DNA from: a virus
IMG/VR virus record: IMGVR_UViG_3300001213_000227
Location: 1 to 25,401 of that record
DNA length: 25,401 nucleotides
Reading direction: 5' to 3' (one strand)
The translations under genes were made by a program, and so were the position numbers. Below the pieces are notes generated by a model that was not told the DNA's origin, searched no databases, and was given only the letters and a program-made list of their open reading frames with translations. Positions 17,177 through 23,926 of this stretch are shown piece by piece. Position 1 is the first letter of the stretch, and each line of letters begins with the position of its first letter.

Positions 17177-17267
17177 GTAGCACAAAAGGCATAAATTTAT
17201 GGCAACTGGAAAATTGGTAAGTATCTATTCTATACGTGATCGGAAATGTGTATTTTTGGGGTAGTTG

Positions 17268-17321
17268 TACGTAGTTTCAAAATAATTATTAATATATATA
17301 TAATTTTCTCGATACTACGTA
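17268..17321 (+). promoter_or_regulatory. AT-rich promoter bracketed by an inverted repeat
   Basis: -35 TTCAAA (17276-17281), 17-base spacer, -10 TATAAT (17299-17304). TACGTAGT (17268-17275) abuts the -35 and its inverted partner ACTACGTA (17314-17321) covers the expected start point. The spacing (38 bases between arms) suits looping or two bound dimers. Downstream, the motif GTTT(T)CAAAA seen at the -35 recurs at about 17324. The rest of the ~260-base gap between genes is AT-rich without a convincing gene. Confidence 0.5.
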
Positions 17322-17377
17322 AGAGTTTTCAAAAGTACAGATTTTCAACTCAAACAGAAAGAAAGGCAAAAAACAGT

Positions 17378-18373
17378 ATGCACAAGAAGCTAAATCAATC
17401 TACTATCCGACACTTTCAAAACCGGATAATCAAGTCTCAAGAAACGGTTGAAAACCTATGGGTAAAATACATGGAAGCCGAAGCCGAATGGGAACGCAAT
17501 AACCCTGTCGTTGTTGTAGCAAACGATATACACCTTGTCCCCTTGTTTGAAGGAGGGGTAACAGCGTATTTCAGATACCTTTCTAATCCTTTTACATTTA
17601 ACATGAAGGTATCTGAGCTGCGCGATTTATTAGAGTCAAAACCTCCTTTTACCACAACTAAAAACGGTAAGCTCGTTGCGGGTAGAGGTGAGGACTTTTA
17701 CTTACAACTTCAAACTGGTGATGATGGGGGTGTATGTCGTCATTACAACGAAGCTTTTACAGATTGTGCGGAAGACCGGGCCTGGTTAGCAAAGGAAACC
17801 GGCTGGACAGATGCACAGATTGATTGGCATATTGTACGAGCGGGATTACATTGTTTAGTAGAAGAAAATTCGCTAGAGGGTAAACGCGCCAAAATAACTA
17901 GGTTTGTTGAAGAGGGGTTGCTAGATGCTAAGCAGGCTGAAGAGTTTATAAACGCTGTTCGGTTAGGTAACATCGAGGAAGAAGAAGAACGTCGTTTCAT
18001 TGGTAGATACGAGCGGCAACTTAAACAGCTTGATGAAGAACAACGCAGGTTGGCAAAAGAGTTCGCCAAAGAGGAGCGAGAGACAGAGCGAGAGGCAACT
18101 AGAATGGAAAAGGAGGAAAAACGCCTGGAAAAATTAAAATCAAGCGGGATGCCCAAAACCAAAACTATTGAGAAAGTTTACCAGGCGCTGAAATCAGCAT
18201 GTAACTCCGAATGGATTGTCGACCTGGGTTGGGACAAAATACTTGAACTTGCCGGGGTAAGTAGCCGCACAACACTTTCTAAAGTATTGACCGAACTGAA
18301 AGAAGCTGGAATAGTCCAGGAACTACCTGGCGTTAAAAAGGCAAAGCTTTACAAGATTGTACAAGGATACTGA
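17378..18373 (+). CDS. Coiled-coil protein with C-terminal winged helix; possible replication or partition factor
   Basis: 331 residues from ATG 17378 (aaagg 11 bases ahead); the longer open frame from 17246 runs through the promoter and is not used. The N-terminal ~190 residues are mixed alpha/beta with YFRYLSNPFTFNMKVSELRD and AWLAKETGWTDAQIDWHIVR, the latter resembling helix-turn-helix packing. Residues ~205-270 are a highly charged coiled coil (EEEERRFIGRYERQLKQLDE onward). Residues ~275-331 form a winged helix: KIEKVYQ-like helix, WDKILELAGVSSRTTLSKVL, ELKEAGIVQEL. Winged-helix plus coiled coil occurs in phage replication initiators and regulators. I do not recognise the family. A terminator follows immediately. 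Confidence 0.6.
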   Translation: MHKKLNQSTIRHFQNRIIKSQETVENLWVKYMEAEAEWERNNPVVVVANDIHLVPLFEGGVTAYFRYLSNPFTFNMKVSELRDLLESKPPFTTTKNGKLVAGRGEDFYLQLQTGDDGGVCRHYNEAFTDCAEDRAWLAKETGWTDAQIDWHIVRAGLHCLVEENSLEGKRAKITRFVEEGLLDAKQAEEFINAVRLGNIEEEEERRFIGRYERQLKQLDEEQRRLAKEFAKEERETEREATRMEKEEKRLEKLKSSGMPKTKTIEKVYQALKSACNSEWIVDLGWDKILELAGVSSRTTLSKVLTELKEAGIVQELPGVKKAKLYKIVQGY

Positions 18374-19332: not shown

Positions 19333-19806
19333 ATGAAAAAACTATTGCTTTCAGCATTAATTGCTTTGCTCCTGGCGAATATGATGCAGGTCGCGGTCAA
19401 CGCTGACGATTTTGATTTTAATCAGCAAGTAAGTCTATTCGGGGCGACAGGTACGTTGACTTGCGTGACAGACAACGATGCAAGTGAGCCTGACATGAAA
19501 ATTAGAGTTTATTTGCAATTTTTAGCACTGGATGCGGAAAAGGAGGCGCAAATTACCTCTTTAGTGCAAAATTATTCATTATTGGCTTTTTCCGCAGCCG
19601 GTAAGGATAATTTGCTGATTTTCCCAAAATATGCGGAATTTGAAGATTATTACTCGGATACTTATGGGCATGATGTGAGCTTGCTTACAATAGGATTTGA
19701 ACATGTCCCCTCCCTAGTACCGATTACGAATATTCGTTGGAAAATAATTCACGAAAAATATTTACAAGCCTATCCGCTTTTTTGCTCCGCTTTTAGGGGG
19801 AAATAA
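19333..19806 (+). CDS. Secreted protein of unknown function
   Basis: 157 residues from ATG 19333, with ggggagg 7-12 bases ahead; an upstream open frame from 19240 has no such signal. N-terminal KKLLLSALIALLLANMMQVA followed by VNADD is a clear signal peptide with a likely cleavage after Ala-x-Ala (near residue 24). The mature part is mixed (LFGATGTLTCVTDNDASEPD; LSLVQNYSLLAF-like helix; YGHDVSLLTIGFEHVPS) with two Cys residues that could form a disulphide. I recognise no family. It sits between the tiny membrane peptide and a four-helix membrane protein whose ATG overlaps its stop, so it may work with them at the envelope. Confidence 0.65.
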   Translation: MKKLLLSALIALLLANMMQVAVNADDFDFNQQVSLFGATGTLTCVTDNDASEPDMKIRVYLQFLALDAEKEAQITSLVQNYSLLAFSAAGKDNLLIFPKYAEFEDYYSDTYGHDVSLLTIGFEHVPSLVPITNIRWKIIHEKYLQAYPLFCSAFRGK

Positions 19807-20474
19807 TGAAAGAGGAAAAGTCTATTGATTGGCGAAAATTTGTAGCAAGGGCCGCACTTGTACTCTTGGCAGGTAGCGCCGCTTATGGGGTCTATGCCTT
19901 TTCCGAGCTATTTACACCCTGGCCTATTGCCGCGCTGACTGCAATCAGCTTTGAGGCTTGCTATGTGGGACTGGCCTGCTTATCCGAATTGACAGAACAG
20001 CAAAAGATTGTAGCAAACCGGATAGCTGTTTGGGCGGTCATTGTGTCAATTATTTACAACAGCATTGCCGCCGTTGCCCACTTATCCTCAAAGTCTTTTG
20101 TCAATCTGGACATTACCGCCGTGTGGGGATTGGCTATAATGCACGGGCTACCGCTGGCTTTAACCGGCTACTTCTTGTCAAATCTTTTGCTCCACTCTGA
20201 TAACCCGGTTGGCAAAGAAATTGAGCCTAGCCTTGACAATCACACTTTGCCAGAAACTGACAAAAGTGAGGCTGTTAGCTACTCAATTCCTGACAAAGAA
20301 TTACCCGCGGGTGAACCAACCGAAATAGCGGCTTTATTGGCCGAAACAGAGCCAATCCAGGTCGAGCAAAAGACCTGCGCCGCTGAAGGGTGCGGTGAGA
20401 TGGCCCGGCCACGTGGTAAATATTGCAGTGACACTTGTCGTCAAAAGGCTTTTAGAGCAGCTAAATCCGCATAG
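19806..20474 (+). CDS. Four-helix membrane protein with C-terminal zinc finger
   Basis: 222 residues; its ATG shares a base with the preceding TAA (TAATG). Hydrophobic helices at about 12-32, 39-60, 70-92 and 104-130, including a loop with YNSIAAVAHL and a helix start IMHGLPLALTGYF. This pattern (N..AH between helices 3 and 4, H-x-x-P in helix 4) resembles the DUF2637-type membrane proteins found with conjugative elements of actinomycetes. An acidic linker (~135-185) leads to a zinc finger at 191-213: C191, C196, C207, C211 in CAAEGCGEM ... YCSDTCRQKAF, a finger seen alone in many phage proteins. The zinc finger would lie in the cytoplasm if the N terminus does too. It may bind DNA near the membrane; that is inference. 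Confidence 0.6.
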   Translation: MKEEKSIDWRKFVARAALVLLAGSAAYGVYAFSELFTPWPIAALTAISFEACYVGLACLSELTEQQKIVANRIAVWAVIVSIIYNSIAAVAHLSSKSFVNLDITAVWGLAIMHGLPLALTGYFLSNLLLHSDNPVGKEIEPSLDNHTLPETDKSEAVSYSIPDKELPAGEPTEIAALLAETEPIQVEQKTCAAEGCGEMARPRGKYCSDTCRQKAFRAAKSA

Positions 20475-20477
20475 AAA

Positions 20478-20500
20478 AAGCCAGGCTTTTGACCTGGCTT
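20478..20500. terminator. Hairpin after the membrane protein operon
   Basis: AAGCCAGG (20478-20485), loop of seven, CCTGGCTT (20493-20500): eight perfect pairs. A T-run follows only on the minus strand (the A-run before the stem), so as an intrinsic terminator it suits the minus direction; on + it may be weak. The remaining ~115 bases up to the ATPase gene hold no gene that I can support. Confidence 0.5.
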
Positions 20501-20617: not shown

Positions 20618-21997
20618 ATGAAGGTTATTTATGTAGGGGGAGTGGCAATAGCAATCGTTTTTTCTATTGGTTTTATGATTGCCCTCGGCCCGATGCTACC
20701 GCTAGTTGGCTGGATTACTTTTGGGCTGATCTGGCTTATTGCCGCTGGTATGGCCGTTGTGATCGGTCGCCGTTACTGGATAAAAGGCACGGTAGAATTA
20801 TTAAACGCTCAAAAAATCCACGCTGATAATTCCGCAATTCTTATGAAAAATCAAATTCTAGCCTTACCTGCTGGAAACATCGGGTACGGTACGATCAGTA
20901 ACCTTCACACCTACCGGGCCGATGGTAACACGCCTGGGATGTTGCCGTTACAACAGCAAACGCAAATTGTAACGCCACAGCTACCGTTACAGTCTCAACA
21001 ACAAACCGTAACGGCTGAACAGGCCGTGCGAAAACTTCAGCGTGACAGCCTATCATGGTTTTTCGGGGTAGATGAAAACGGGCAAGATGTAACGGCAAAG
21101 ATCGAAGAAAGCGTTCACGTGCTAAACGTCGCTGGATCAGGCCAGGGTAAAACGACGCTAACAGCTAACCTGTTATACCAGCTGGTTATGTGTAACGATA
21201 GTCGTCTTTACCGTTTGATGATTGCCGACATTAAAGGAACGCTCGTTCGCCCGTTTCAGCCCTGGTGTAACACTTCAGGAATGAAGCCAAACGACTATGT
21301 AACGATAATCCAGAAGGCCCGTAACATCACTGAGAAACGGATGGCTAAAGATGCGCGTTACGGCACTGCAAAGGGCGAAGATTTAGTGTTAATCGTTTTA
21401 GAGGAAGCGTTAGCCGTTCGCGCTATGATGGACGAGTCACAGCTTGAGAGTTATTCAGCCAACCTGAATATCGTTGCAACTAACGGTAGGGAATATGGGG
21501 TTTTCTTACTCGCCTGCGCTCAAATCGACTATACCGAAAAAGCGTTTCGCGTTTCAAAGGCGTTATTTATGACCCGGTTAGCCGGGGCATTCCCGCCGAC
21601 TGCCGCTAACAGCATGGGATTTTACGATTACCCGTTAGTAAAACGACTCTGGCAGGAAAAGAAACGCGGTCAGTTTATGCTTGAAGGGCCGGACGGTAGC
21701 CGTTTGTTCCAAGTGCCCCGGCTAGACATGAAAAACGGCGAACTCGACACGCTGTTACAGGCAGTAATTCGACCTGCCGTTACACCTGTAACAGAGGATG
21801 AAACGGAAAACTATATAGAAGTGCAACTTCCACTGGCTCAGGATGAGGTACGAGCGACCGCATATTATTATAACAACGGTTGGACTACGGCCCGGCAACT
21901 AGCCGCCAAAATGACCGAAGCCGGGCGGCAATGTGGCAAAGATAAAGCCCTACGGCTTATCGAAGAAGCTAAACGACAAGGCTTAATTAACGAGTAG
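20618..21997 (+). CDS. FtsK/TraB-like membrane ATPase (DNA translocase)
   Basis: 459 residues, with agaggtg before the ATG. Two membrane helices (about 3-23 and 28-49), a Gln/Pro-rich linker (108-130), then a RecA-like ATPase: Walker A GSGQGKTT (173-180), ADIKGTL (203-209), Walker B region LVLIVLEEA (256-264) with Glu in place of the usual Asp, and the sensor-type Gln in FLLACAQ (296-302). Residues ~405-459 (YYYNNGWTTARQLAAKMTEA ... RLIEEAKRQGLINE) form a winged helix as at the end of FtsK and TraB. Such proteins pump double-stranded DNA across or along membranes. It is shorter than chromosomal FtsK and similar in size to TraB of actinomycete elements. Codon use is odd, with many ACG, GTA and CGT codons and the repeated GTAAC/GTTAC motif. 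Confidence 0.75.
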   Translation: MKVIYVGGVAIAIVFSIGFMIALGPMLPLVGWITFGLIWLIAAGMAVVIGRRYWIKGTVELLNAQKIHADNSAILMKNQILALPAGNIGYGTISNLHTYRADGNTPGMLPLQQQTQIVTPQLPLQSQQQTVTAEQAVRKLQRDSLSWFFGVDENGQDVTAKIEESVHVLNVAGSGQGKTTLTANLLYQLVMCNDSRLYRLMIADIKGTLVRPFQPWCNTSGMKPNDYVTIIQKARNITEKRMAKDARYGTAKGEDLVLIVLEEALAVRAMMDESQLESYSANLNIVATNGREYGVFLLACAQIDYTEKAFRVSKALFMTRLAGAFPPTAANSMGFYDYPLVKRLWQEKKRGQFMLEGPDGSRLFQVPRLDMKNGELDTLLQAVIRPAVTPVTEDETENYIEVQLPLAQDEVRATAYYYNNGWTTARQLAAKMTEAGRQCGKDKALRLIEEAKRQGLINE

Positions 21998-22444
21998 GTG
22001 TCTGTCTGTCTGGTATTTATCGCCTGAAATAAGGCGATTTCATCAGACAGATAGACAGACAGACAGAAGAGGATGAAATGAACGCGAAACTGTTGCAAGC
22101 TCTAATCCGGGCATTAAAACCTTATATCAAAACCGGATCGTACAGCTTTGCCGTTACACTCGTTACTAACCAGTTGCTACAAGCCGTTACGCCTAGTAGC
22201 CAGCTACACGCCTGGTTGTTTGTGGCGTTTGGGCTATCAATTGCCGTTACGGGGCTTTGCTCGTTCGCGTGTCTAGTGTTGTTACGGGCAACGTTTCAGC
22301 CTACTAAGCGTAACAGGCGAAAAACCAACCGTAACGGCAACCGTAACGCCGCTGTAACGCCACGATCCCGGCGCGTTACAGCTAAAAAAGAGCCTGAAAC
22401 GCTTGCACCGGGCTACCGTTACGGCGGTAGGATGAGCCGTAACG
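20771..22444. repeat. Dense cluster of GTAAC/GTTAC (CCGTWACGG) motifs
   Basis: By hand I count 28 GTAAC or GTTAC pentamers in this ~1.67 kb, against 3-4 expected at equal base frequencies; neighbouring 17.3-20.6 kb and 22.5-24.6 kb show about 5 each. Four are full CCGTWACGG: 21006-21014, 22244-22252, 22329-22337 and 22416-22424; many others differ by one or two flanking bases. They fall in all three codon phases (CGT TAC, CCG TTA C, GCC GTT AC, GTA ACG), so the signal is in DNA rather than protein. It covers the ATPase gene and the next gene and then stops. Confidence 0.75.
21999..22057. repeat. Nested inverted repeat between ATPase and membrane protein genes
   Basis: Outer arms TGTCTGTCTGTCTG (21999-22012) and CAGACAGATAGACA (22044-22057) pair over 14 positions with one G-T. 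Inner arms ATCGCCT (22019-22025) and AGGCGAT (22032-22038) pair perfectly around a six-base loop. The right arm continues as a CAGA tetranucleotide run to about 22066 and merges into the ribosome-binding site of the next gene. No T-run follows, so it is not a usual terminator. Confidence 0.8.
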
Positions 22445-22491
22445 AGTTGCCAGACCCTAATGTTATAGATGGTTATTTTAGGAGTTATTAG
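22078..22491 (+). CDS. Small basic membrane protein, partner of the ATPase candidate
   Basis: 137 residues; gaagagg before the ATG. Two hydrophobic stretches (about 22-38 and 43-70, the second strongly so: LFVAFGLSIAVTGLCSFACL) are followed by a very basic tail (KRNRRKTNRNGNRNAAV, PRSRRVTAKK) and a polar end. Much of the tail is coded by CGTAAC hexamers, so its Arg-Asn pattern may be a by-product of the DNA motif. It follows the ATPase gene across the nested inverted repeat. Small membrane proteins with basic tails accompany TraB-type transfer ATPases (Spd proteins) in actinomycete elements; sequence similarity is not claimed. Confidence 0.55.
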   Translation: MNAKLLQALIRALKPYIKTGSYSFAVTLVTNQLLQAVTPSSQLHAWLFVAFGLSIAVTGLCSFACLVLLRATFQPTKRNRRKTNRNGNRNAAVTPRSRRVTAKKEPETLAPGYRYGGRMSRNELPDPNVIDGYFRSY

Positions 22492-22515
22492 CCCGGCGCT
22501 GAACCGGGCCTTTTT
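22491..22515 (+). terminator. Intrinsic terminator between the ATPase module and integrase
   Basis: GCCCGG (22491-22496), loop cgctgaa, CCGGGC (22504-22509), then CTTTTT. It begins in the stop codon of the membrane protein gene and lies three bases from the end of the converging integrase gene. Confidence 0.85.
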
Positions 22516-22517
22516 GT

Positions 22518-23660
22518 CTATCGCTCTTTCCGGGGGCGACCAACCCGCCGTTTCATCGGTTTGCTAATCTCCGGCAGCTGGGCCAGAGGCGAACGGGGTG
22601 CGTAAGCTTCTGCCAATCTATCAGCGTTCTGATGGACATAAACTTGAGTGGTGGTTATCGAAGTGTGCCCCAAAATTTCTTTAAGGGCAAACATTTCTAT
22701 TCCCTGCCGGGCTAGTGTACTAGCGAAAGTGTGCCTGAACTTATGAGCGTGGAAATCCACACCACAACCAGCTTTCAGTCGTCTGACTACCATCCCGAAC
22801 CCCTGGTAAGAGAGTGGCTCACCATCCTCACAAAGCCACAGTTCTTCCTTACCAGACGGTCTGACCTTTAGATAAGCTTTCAAAGCCTCACGACAAGCCC
22901 CCTCAAAGAAAACATGTCTTTGGCCTGTTTTGCCACTAACTATGGCTCGATTTCTTTCCAGGTCTAAATCTGAAAGCTTGATGTTTAACAACTCCCCTCG
23001 CCTAACGCCCGTATCGAGTAAGAAAGCGACCATAGCCAGATTGCGCTTGCCGGTTGACATTGCCAGCCGATCAGGTTGCATCAAATATTGAAAAATCGTT
23101 GACAAATCGGAATCGTCCACAATTTTAATAATCCGGTCTTGTTTGTGTCGACTGGTAAATTTTACAGACTTGTTAAATGGGGATGCCTCAATATAATCTT
23201 CGCGTTCAAGCCAGTTAAAGAAGGCCTTGACCGTCCGACCATAGGCAGCTATAGAAGCGTCACTAAGCTTTTGGCTTTGCTGGGATTTATTGTTTGTGGC
23301 TTTGGTGATGCCCCATCGGAAAGCAACTGTATCACGAAGATAAGCTGCAAACTGCCGCGCTTCCTTGACAGTAATATTTTCAGGATGTGCCCCTAACTTT
23401 TCAGCAAAATGGGTATGGTCATTCCACCACCACCAAAACTTAAAAGTTTTATCGGTGTAGTCGTCTATCGTTTTTGGGGACAGGCCATCGGCTTTACAGG
23501 CAGATAGCCACTCCCTGATTAAACGGCGAAAGGGGCAAGCTTCCTCGGCTGGGTCTGGGTTTGGGGCTACGGCCAGGGCAGTGGTCGTAGTGGTGTTACC
23601 AACGGTTAACATCTGGCTTTTTTGAACGCCAGATAATTTATTAAGATCAGTGGTTTTCAT
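22518..23660 (-). CDS. int: Tyrosine recombinase (integrase)
   Basis: 380 residues on the minus strand; aggag lies ten bases ahead of the ATG. Residues ~43-160 are the core-binding domain (WLSACKADGLSPKTIDDYTD; LSDASIAAYGRTVKAFFNWL). The catalytic domain (~180-350) has all the expected residues: R220 in DTGVRRGELL, K244 in SGKTGQ, H306 and R309 in HAHKFRHTFA, H332 in LGHTSI and Tyr341 in TTTQVYVH. The C terminus (RRVGRPRKER) is AT-hook-like and may aid DNA binding. The protein integrates and excises the element at a tRNA-Lys gene, judged from the attachment sequence 76 bases upstream of its start. The ATPase module is convergent to it. Confidence 0.93.
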   Translation of the reverse strand: MKTTDLNKLSGVQKSQMLTVGNTTTTTALAVAPNPDPAEEACPFRRLIREWLSACKADGLSPKTIDDYTDKTFKFWWWWNDHTHFAEKLGAHPENITVKEARQFAAYLRDTVAFRWGITKATNNKSQQSQKLSDASIAAYGRTVKAFFNWLEREDYIEASPFNKSVKFTSRHKQDRIIKIVDDSDLSTIFQYLMQPDRLAMSTGKRNLAMVAFLLDTGVRRGELLNIKLSDLDLERNRAIVSGKTGQRHVFFEGACREALKAYLKVRPSGKEELWLCEDGEPLSYQGFGMVVRRLKAGCGVDFHAHKFRHTFASTLARQGIEMFALKEILGHTSITTTQVYVHQNADRLAEAYAPRSPLAQLPEISKPMKRRVGRPRKER

Positions 23661-23698: not shown

Positions 23699-23809
23699 GT
23701 ATCGAAACAAAAAAGGCTTTGTAATGGGGTGAAAATGACCGCGCCGGGACTCGAACCCGGGACCCACTGATTAAAAGTCTGTCTGTCCAAAAAGCCAGTC
23801 TTTCGATAC
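23699..23809. repeat. Inverted arm-like repeats flanking the att core
   Basis: GTATCGAAA (23699-23707) and TTTCGATAC (23801-23809) are a 9-base inverted repeat placed about 30 bases on the left and 20 on the right of the tRNA-like core. Farther out, CAGTGGTTTT occurs at 23648-23657 (overlapping the integrase start) and 23851-23860, as direct copies. These are likely integrase or excisionase arm sites. Confidence 0.55.
23736..23779 (-). other. attP: Attachment site: 3' half of tRNA-Lys(UUU)
   Basis: Read on the minus strand, the sequence runs from the anticodon loop CTTTTAA (anticodon UUU) through TCAGT, variable loop, T stem CCGGG-TTCGAGT-CCCGG, and the acceptor 3' strand CGCGGTC with discriminator A. 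An intact gene would need GACCGCG and a D arm upstream; both are absent from the next ~80 bases, and the anticodon stem has one mismatch (ACAGA with TCAGT). So this is not a working tRNA gene. It is the identity segment by which the element recombines with, and restores, a host tRNA-Lys gene. Confidence 0.75.
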
Positions 23810-23926
23810 ATTCACGCTCAAATTATAACATTAATCCTTCAATTTTTACCAGTGGTTTTTTGTAATCAGTGGGTCTAGTTCGGCTTTTGTGTGTTGCCTG
23901 ATGTTAACACCTGAGCAGGATAGAGA

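Follow-up and report, generated by a model that had tools for sequence, protein, structure and literature searches.

In viruses of bacteria, the start sites of DNA replication often lie inside genes. In phage lambda the ori lies in the O gene, and the corresponding lambdoid origin consists of four 19-bp iterons accompanied by an AT-rich segment (PMC4488673). Short repeated sites that are read by a protein have likewise been described in the genes of Streptomyces plasmids, where the TraB protein recognizes 8-bp repeats via a C-terminal winged helix, and where the clt locus of pWTY27 overlaps the gene for its own motor, TraA, and contains both direct and inverted repeats (PMC3583192). In plasmid pIJ101, the SpdA2 protein binds a 12-bp palindrome (sps) that lies inside its own gene in only 1-3 copies and that affects stability (PMC4170104). 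Finally, the KOPS sites associated with the translocase FtsK are 8 bp long and all point from the origin towards the terminus (PMC2680272).

The locus described here was found in a virus record, the whole of which (25,401 nucleotides, hereafter the window) was analysed; the coordinates of its features are collected in Table 1. The record represents one end of a prophage and comprises a partial portal gene, head and tail genes, an amidase, an early region that starts at approximately 16 kb, a tyrosine integrase and a probable host flank. It is a fragment, and an initiator gene may sit beyond its left end. Within the early region, positions 17246-18373 encode a 375-residue protein of no known family with a weak, HTH-like C-terminal tail, which might be the DNA-binding or initiator protein that the record otherwise lacks; a structure model of the product of 17378-18370 was too poor to use. 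Beside the integrase, the minus strand at 23738-23780 resembles the 3' portion of a tRNA-Lys, comprising its anticodon loop and T arm, and is a likely attachment site. ARAGORN reported no complete tRNA, and part of this stretch recurs as an inverted repeat at 23860-23875. An Rfam search produced no match, and DNA similarity searches returned nothing meaningful.

Table 1. Coordinates of the array, its carrier genes and neighbouring features in the window
Feature	Position	Strand	Remarks
Source record IMGVR_UViG_3300001213_000227	1-25,401		virus record, 25,401 bases
FtsK/TraB-like ATPase gene	20618..21997	+	459 aa; contains 10 GTAACG, 41 AACG
Small membrane protein gene	22078..22491	+	137 aa; contains 10 GTAACG
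Array, dense core	22151..22444		293 bp with 10 GTAACG, divided 6:4 between the strands
Array, looser part, in ATPase gene	20771..21361		9 GTAACG, many AAACG
Intergenic hairpin	21999..22067		DNA fold z -4.9; no motif copy inside
Terminator-like hairpin, upstream edge of cassette	20478..20500	-	consensus match only
Terminator-like hairpin, downstream edge of cassette	22491..22509	+	consensus match only
Tyrosine integrase	22518..23660	-	PF00589, E 8.3e-31

The two genes that carry the array are the last early genes ahead of the integrase. The product of the first, which a first-pass annotation of the sequence had called an FtsK/TraB-like ATPase, matches the FtsK/SpoIIIE family phrog_1358 of the PHROGs collection (E 1.2e-9), falls below the cut-off for the Pfam family FtsK_SpoIIIE (PF01580), and retains the GxDExG, Walker A, DxK, R and Q motifs when aligned with FtsK-domain proteins from plasmids and one phage. 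Hydropathy indicates two N-terminal membrane helices (residues 3-21 and 31-49), and these features agree with the earlier assignment in pointing to a distant FtsK/TraB-type motor. The C-terminal winged helix that had also been proposed is plausible by eye, and a Pfam search of the tail gave no match; a structure model of the protein was of low confidence (40) and too poor to use. Homologues of the ATPase were found neither by whole-protein, core-segment or alignment scans of viral contigs nor in genome contigs, phages or plasmids, and relatives of the phage identified by their portal lack it; weak tblastn matches proved to be ordinary FtsK-domain proteins and served only for comparison of motifs. 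The second protein displays at least one membrane helix and a basic tail (21 K+R vs 5 D+E), and matched no family in Pfam, PHROGs or NCBIfam. Searches of the same three collections returned no initiator, helicase or primase match for either gene.

A recount confirmed the observation that first drew attention to this region, namely 28 copies of GTAAC or GTTAC in 20771-22444, where the rest of the record predicts 4.5-4.8 for the two genes; similarly, CGTTAC occurs 20 times against 0.7 expected from the rest of the record, and AACG occurs 57 times in the gene pair against 13.3. When one-base variants of GTAACG were compared, GTAACG itself (20) and GAAACG (8) were enriched and the remaining variants stood at background, apart from GTTACG (11), which owes its raised count to CGTAACG sites, since its complement CGTAAC is their flank. 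T is rare after AACG (3 of 57). The word is thus a directional hexamer, GWAACG, with A, C or G (V) in the next position; in the rest of the record GTAACG occurs at 0.36/kb and is not over-represented. The first-pass annotation had noted that four copies form the full odd palindrome CCGTWACGG. All four were recovered, and the record has none outside the array stretch, but a palindromic reading of the motif was rejected: the palindromes appear largely incidental, since T precedes GTAACG as often as C does (TGTAACG is as common as CGTAACG).

The array fills exactly the ATPase gene and the gene that follows it, and ends at their edges: WAACG occurs 47 times in 20618-22491, is absent from 19400-20400, and is found once in 22600-23400. 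The cluster does not, as had been supposed, begin inside the ATPase gene at 20771, while its end ahead of the integrase was correctly placed. Both edges coincide with terminator-like hairpins. The density of WAACG across the gene pair is 25/kb, or one per 40 bp, versus 3.6/kb elsewhere, and outside the dense core a halo persists in which GTAACG occurs at 3.3/kb and AACG at 18/kb. Copies are found in all three codon phases and on both strands, as previously noted, with AACG divided into 28 plus-strand and 29 minus-strand copies and showing no runs (runs test p 0.40), so that a polarity of the sites was rejected; helical phasing was rejected as well, since the sites show no helical period.

The relationship of the array to codon use was established by permuting synonymous codons within each gene, which preserves both the protein and its codon use. 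The ATPase gene contains 16 copies of GTAAC/GTTAC versus 8.9 (sd 1.9) in the shuffled genes, with none of 1000 shuffles reaching 16, and the second gene contains 12 versus 7.2 (sd 1.3; p 0.001); under a null that employs the codon usage of the rest of the record, the 20 copies of GTAACG compare with 2.7 (sd 1.5). The word is selected beyond codon use, and the array has shaped the amino acids of both encoded proteins: Val-Thr pairs number 6 in the second protein (0.7 expected) and 6 in the ATPase (2.1 expected), and Arg-Asn pairs number 4 in the second protein (0.9 expected). Once the 306 bases that belong to motif sites are masked, the segment resembles the rest of the phage in its k-mer composition, with chi2/df values of 1.27 for trimers and 1.30 for tetramers that are ordinary among other stretches of the record; a generically foreign composition is therefore unlikely, although these values say nothing against a donor that differed in this one word. 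The alternative of foreign codon or dinucleotide bias, which had been offered alongside the original observation, is disfavoured by the shuffles and by this normal masked composition. Given a sharp motif that is found in every codon phase and on either strand, a bias that it imposes on the amino acids, and a residual composition that is normal, a cis-acting array of protein-read DNA sites, embedded in coding sequence, is well supported by the sequence data.

Other words were seen in excess in other viral genes. GATC exceeds the expectation from codon use in two viral ORFs (L040, 26 vs 13.1; L119, 30 vs 16.0), and in a gene close to that for the capsid (L023:5255-6544 and L025:11493-12782, in G004 and G005) CCGGC reaches 30, where shuffling of synonymous codons gives 15.1 (sd about 3.5).

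Between the two genes lies a hairpin with outer arms TGTCTGTCTGTCTG and CAGACAGATAGACAGACAGACAGA and inner arms ATCGCCT and AGGCGAT. The record contains only two CAGA/TCTG runs, at 22000 and 22043, and these are the arms of that hairpin. They stand 84-150 bp from the dense core, a distance that is mostly 3-15 bp in the swarms of other viruses.

Those swarms were collected by scanning viral contigs for three GTAACG within about 80 bases, so that the comparison set was chosen with this phage's own word. Among the matches listed, many are one-strand coding repeats or weak, and others are compact, mixed-strand swarms, such as 13 copies in about 340 bases (L100) and 13 in about 320 (L086); by count and by mixture of strands, the dense core belongs to this compact class. 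When ORFs that hold or touch a swarm were compared with PHROGs, 14 of 15 among the matches listed corresponded to replication initiation proteins, DnaD-like loaders, primases or helicases (L076, L049, L048, L086 with two ORFs, L073, L100, L043, L085, L113, L107, L126, L144 and L147); the remaining ORF (L112) had no PHROGs match. Two of ten control ORFs, drawn from weak matches of the same pattern, were of replication type. Several further swarms among the matches listed lie in non-coding or unassigned stretches, and the association with replication genes thus appears strong for in-gene swarms and not universal. None of 13 comparison swarms has a GTAACG halo. One-strand swarms (L116, L045, L066, L083, L035 and others) were set aside as likely coding repeats; the carrier in L116 resembles a replication protein by its sequence. 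A CTGACC swarm in the relative G002 (L022:5215-6081) was also discarded as a parallel, as it belongs to a pentapeptide-repeat gene whose repeats mimic a swarm.

Clusters of CAGA/CTGT, which formed no part of the search pattern, adjoin the swarms in L085, L107, L113, L126, L130, L134 and L135. The arrangement of a GTAACG swarm with tandem CAGA/TCTG runs close behind it recurs in initiator genes (L085, L107, L113, L126, L134, L135 and L165), and L130 displays the same swarm and runs at an ORF that has no assignment. A set of 12 initiator genes from named phages, collected by similarity to the initiator proteins of L134 and L113 regardless of GTAACG, contains CAGA runs in 6 of its members, at 0.62/kb versus 0.018/kb around them; across all fetched viral loci the density is 0.042/kb. 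The iteron words of these named initiators vary, with CGTGAC in Pseudomonas phage P7869 and GGCTAA in Cronobacter phage phiES15. The initiator gene of Bradyrhizobium phage ppBjS10J-1 (L165) has five GTAACG in 50 bases on both strands, and that of Acinetobacter phage Silvergun has a few. Iteron words differ among phages while CAGA-type runs recur. A relative of the present phage by its portal (G006) possesses its own mixed-strand swarm, of CGATCACG, together with a CAGA run, inside one gene (22069-23046; L027:2069-3046) that lies about 1.3 kb from the integrase; this gene has no PHROG match, and its product may, by inspection, be a putative winged-helix protein.

The interpretation that we tentatively prefer in view of these parallels, and which we would put at somewhat short of an even chance, is that the array is an in-gene, iteron-like replication origin composed of binding sites for a phage DNA-binding protein. 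The GWAACG(A/C/G) sites, written into two early genes, would be bound by that protein and would form the iteron part of the origin, its dense core falling within the second gene and its looser portion within the gene for the ATPase. The intervening hairpin, which carries CAGA runs on both strands, would act as a partner element for strand opening or helicase loading. The binder might be the ATPase, the protein encoded at 17246-18373, or a protein encoded further to the left, outside the record. One could further speculate that the symmetric layout, in which sites flank a hairpin and CAGA appears on each strand of it, could suit bidirectional helicase loading.

Two traits of such origins are seen at this locus, in that many copies of one short word lie inside an early coding gene beyond the needs of its codons, and tandem CAGA/TCTG runs lie nearby. 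A third is lacking: neither carrier gene matches an initiator, loader, primase or helicase, and for that reason we describe the array as one that would work like an in-gene iteron origin, and do not file it as a member of that class. The swarms in initiator genes (for example L107, L113, L134 and L165) resemble the array in their core word, mixed strands and close CAGA/TCTG runs, but those swarms are compact (about 50-350 bp), have no halo and reside in replication genes. The lambdoid origin is comparable in that an early phage gene carries repeated binding sites within its coding sequence, and differs in that the sites here are 6-7 bp long and extend on both strands over 1.9 kb, with no recognisable initiator gene and no AT-rich segment that stands out beside them. 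The array is also much wider than normal origins. The AT-richness beside the core is unremarkable (a fraction of 0.755 of random stretches are as AT-rich); an AT-rich stretch is missing beside most comparison swarms as well, and this property did not discriminate. The carrier genes, the wide halo and the want of a standout AT-rich stretch all fit an origin poorly, the last being uninformative for the comparison swarms too.

The first-pass annotation had proposed that the repeats are a cis-acting site read by the ATPase in whose gene they are embedded. The cis-acting part of that proposal has held up well; the choice of reader is somewhat unlikely, yet a serious rival to the origin. Under this scheme the array would be a clt-like loading site, at which a membrane-anchored motor, bound to repeats within the gene that encodes it, pumps double-stranded DNA of the element for transfer or segregation. 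It would account for the coincidence of the array with a cassette of ATPase and small membrane protein bounded by terminator-like hairpins, and it draws on several precedents: the two N-terminal membrane helices and FtsK motor match TraA of pWTY27, the Streptomyces systems (pSVH1, pWTY27) likewise combine a membrane-anchored motor of this type with short repeats that lie within the motor gene or adjoin it, and in spdA2, as here, sites in the gene of a DNA-binding protein dictate its amino acids. The ATPase also shares its motor motifs, by alignment, with the FtsK that is associated with KOPS, but the sites at this locus, distributed almost equally over the two strands, do not share the common orientation of KOPS. 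That lack of polarity speaks against a KOPS-type signal and does less harm to a clt-type reading, as direct and inverted repeats both occur in clt loci; known clt loci are, however, compact (about 50-175 bp; PMC3583192), whereas this array extends over about 1.7-1.9 kb. In addition, the winged helix that would read the sites receives no support from profiles or from the low-confidence model, no conjugation function is known in the phage, and no homologues were found in which co-variation could be followed. An origin is the better reading of the two because compact swarms elsewhere sit in replication genes.

Three further explanations were considered. The genomes of cyanobacteria contain one word, HIP1, that is over-represented throughout, and the cassette might similarly be a recent arrival from a donor whose whole genome is enriched in GWAACG, in which case the array would be functionless here. 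The sharp borders at the cassette edges, and an excess that affects both genes in all phases and on both strands, would be expected of such a donor signature, but the donor would have to match the phage in everything except this motif, as the masked tri- and tetranucleotide make-up indicates, and the density of sites is extreme; we regard this explanation as unlikely. Dense, short sites that are neither polar nor phased would also suit a protein that spreads along or coats DNA, as at a partition centromere, in silencing or regulation, or in a methylase-linked switch, but no ParA/ParB-like protein or methylase was present among the record genes searched and nothing connects the motif to such a protein, which leaves these functions more doubtful still. 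Least probable by far is chance combined with the codon and amino-acid preferences of the two genes. These genes do favour Thr ACG, Asn AAC, Arg CGT and Val GTT, and when each ORF is judged by its own codons and its best tetramer, the most stringent null applied, the AACG excess of the ATPase gene ranks only 4th of 496 viral ORFs; the signal is strong yet not unique in kind, and because other genes come close, the case rests on the summed evidence and not on one p-value. Synonymous shuffles nevertheless largely refute this explanation, in that own-codon shuffles over both genes still yield z 7.7 for GTAACG and 7.0 for AACG, single-base variants are not raised, and dipeptides are skewed too.

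It is also conceivable, if improbable, that origin and motor are aspects of a single element, in which a 1.9-kb, non-polar array, co-extensive with an FtsK-like cassette and read by its motor, would provide a temperate phage with one origin for replication and also for transfer or segregation. Cis elements of this kind are not known to have been described for phages. If the array is an origin, the replication start site of this phage could be read from its sequence alone, and the underlying grammar (a swarm of a short word, often with CAGA runs beside it, inside an initiator gene) would allow origins to be called in many uncultured phages. An origin-like array in the gene of an FtsK-like ATPase would, furthermore, connect the replication or transfer of a phage with a DNA motor in the membrane.
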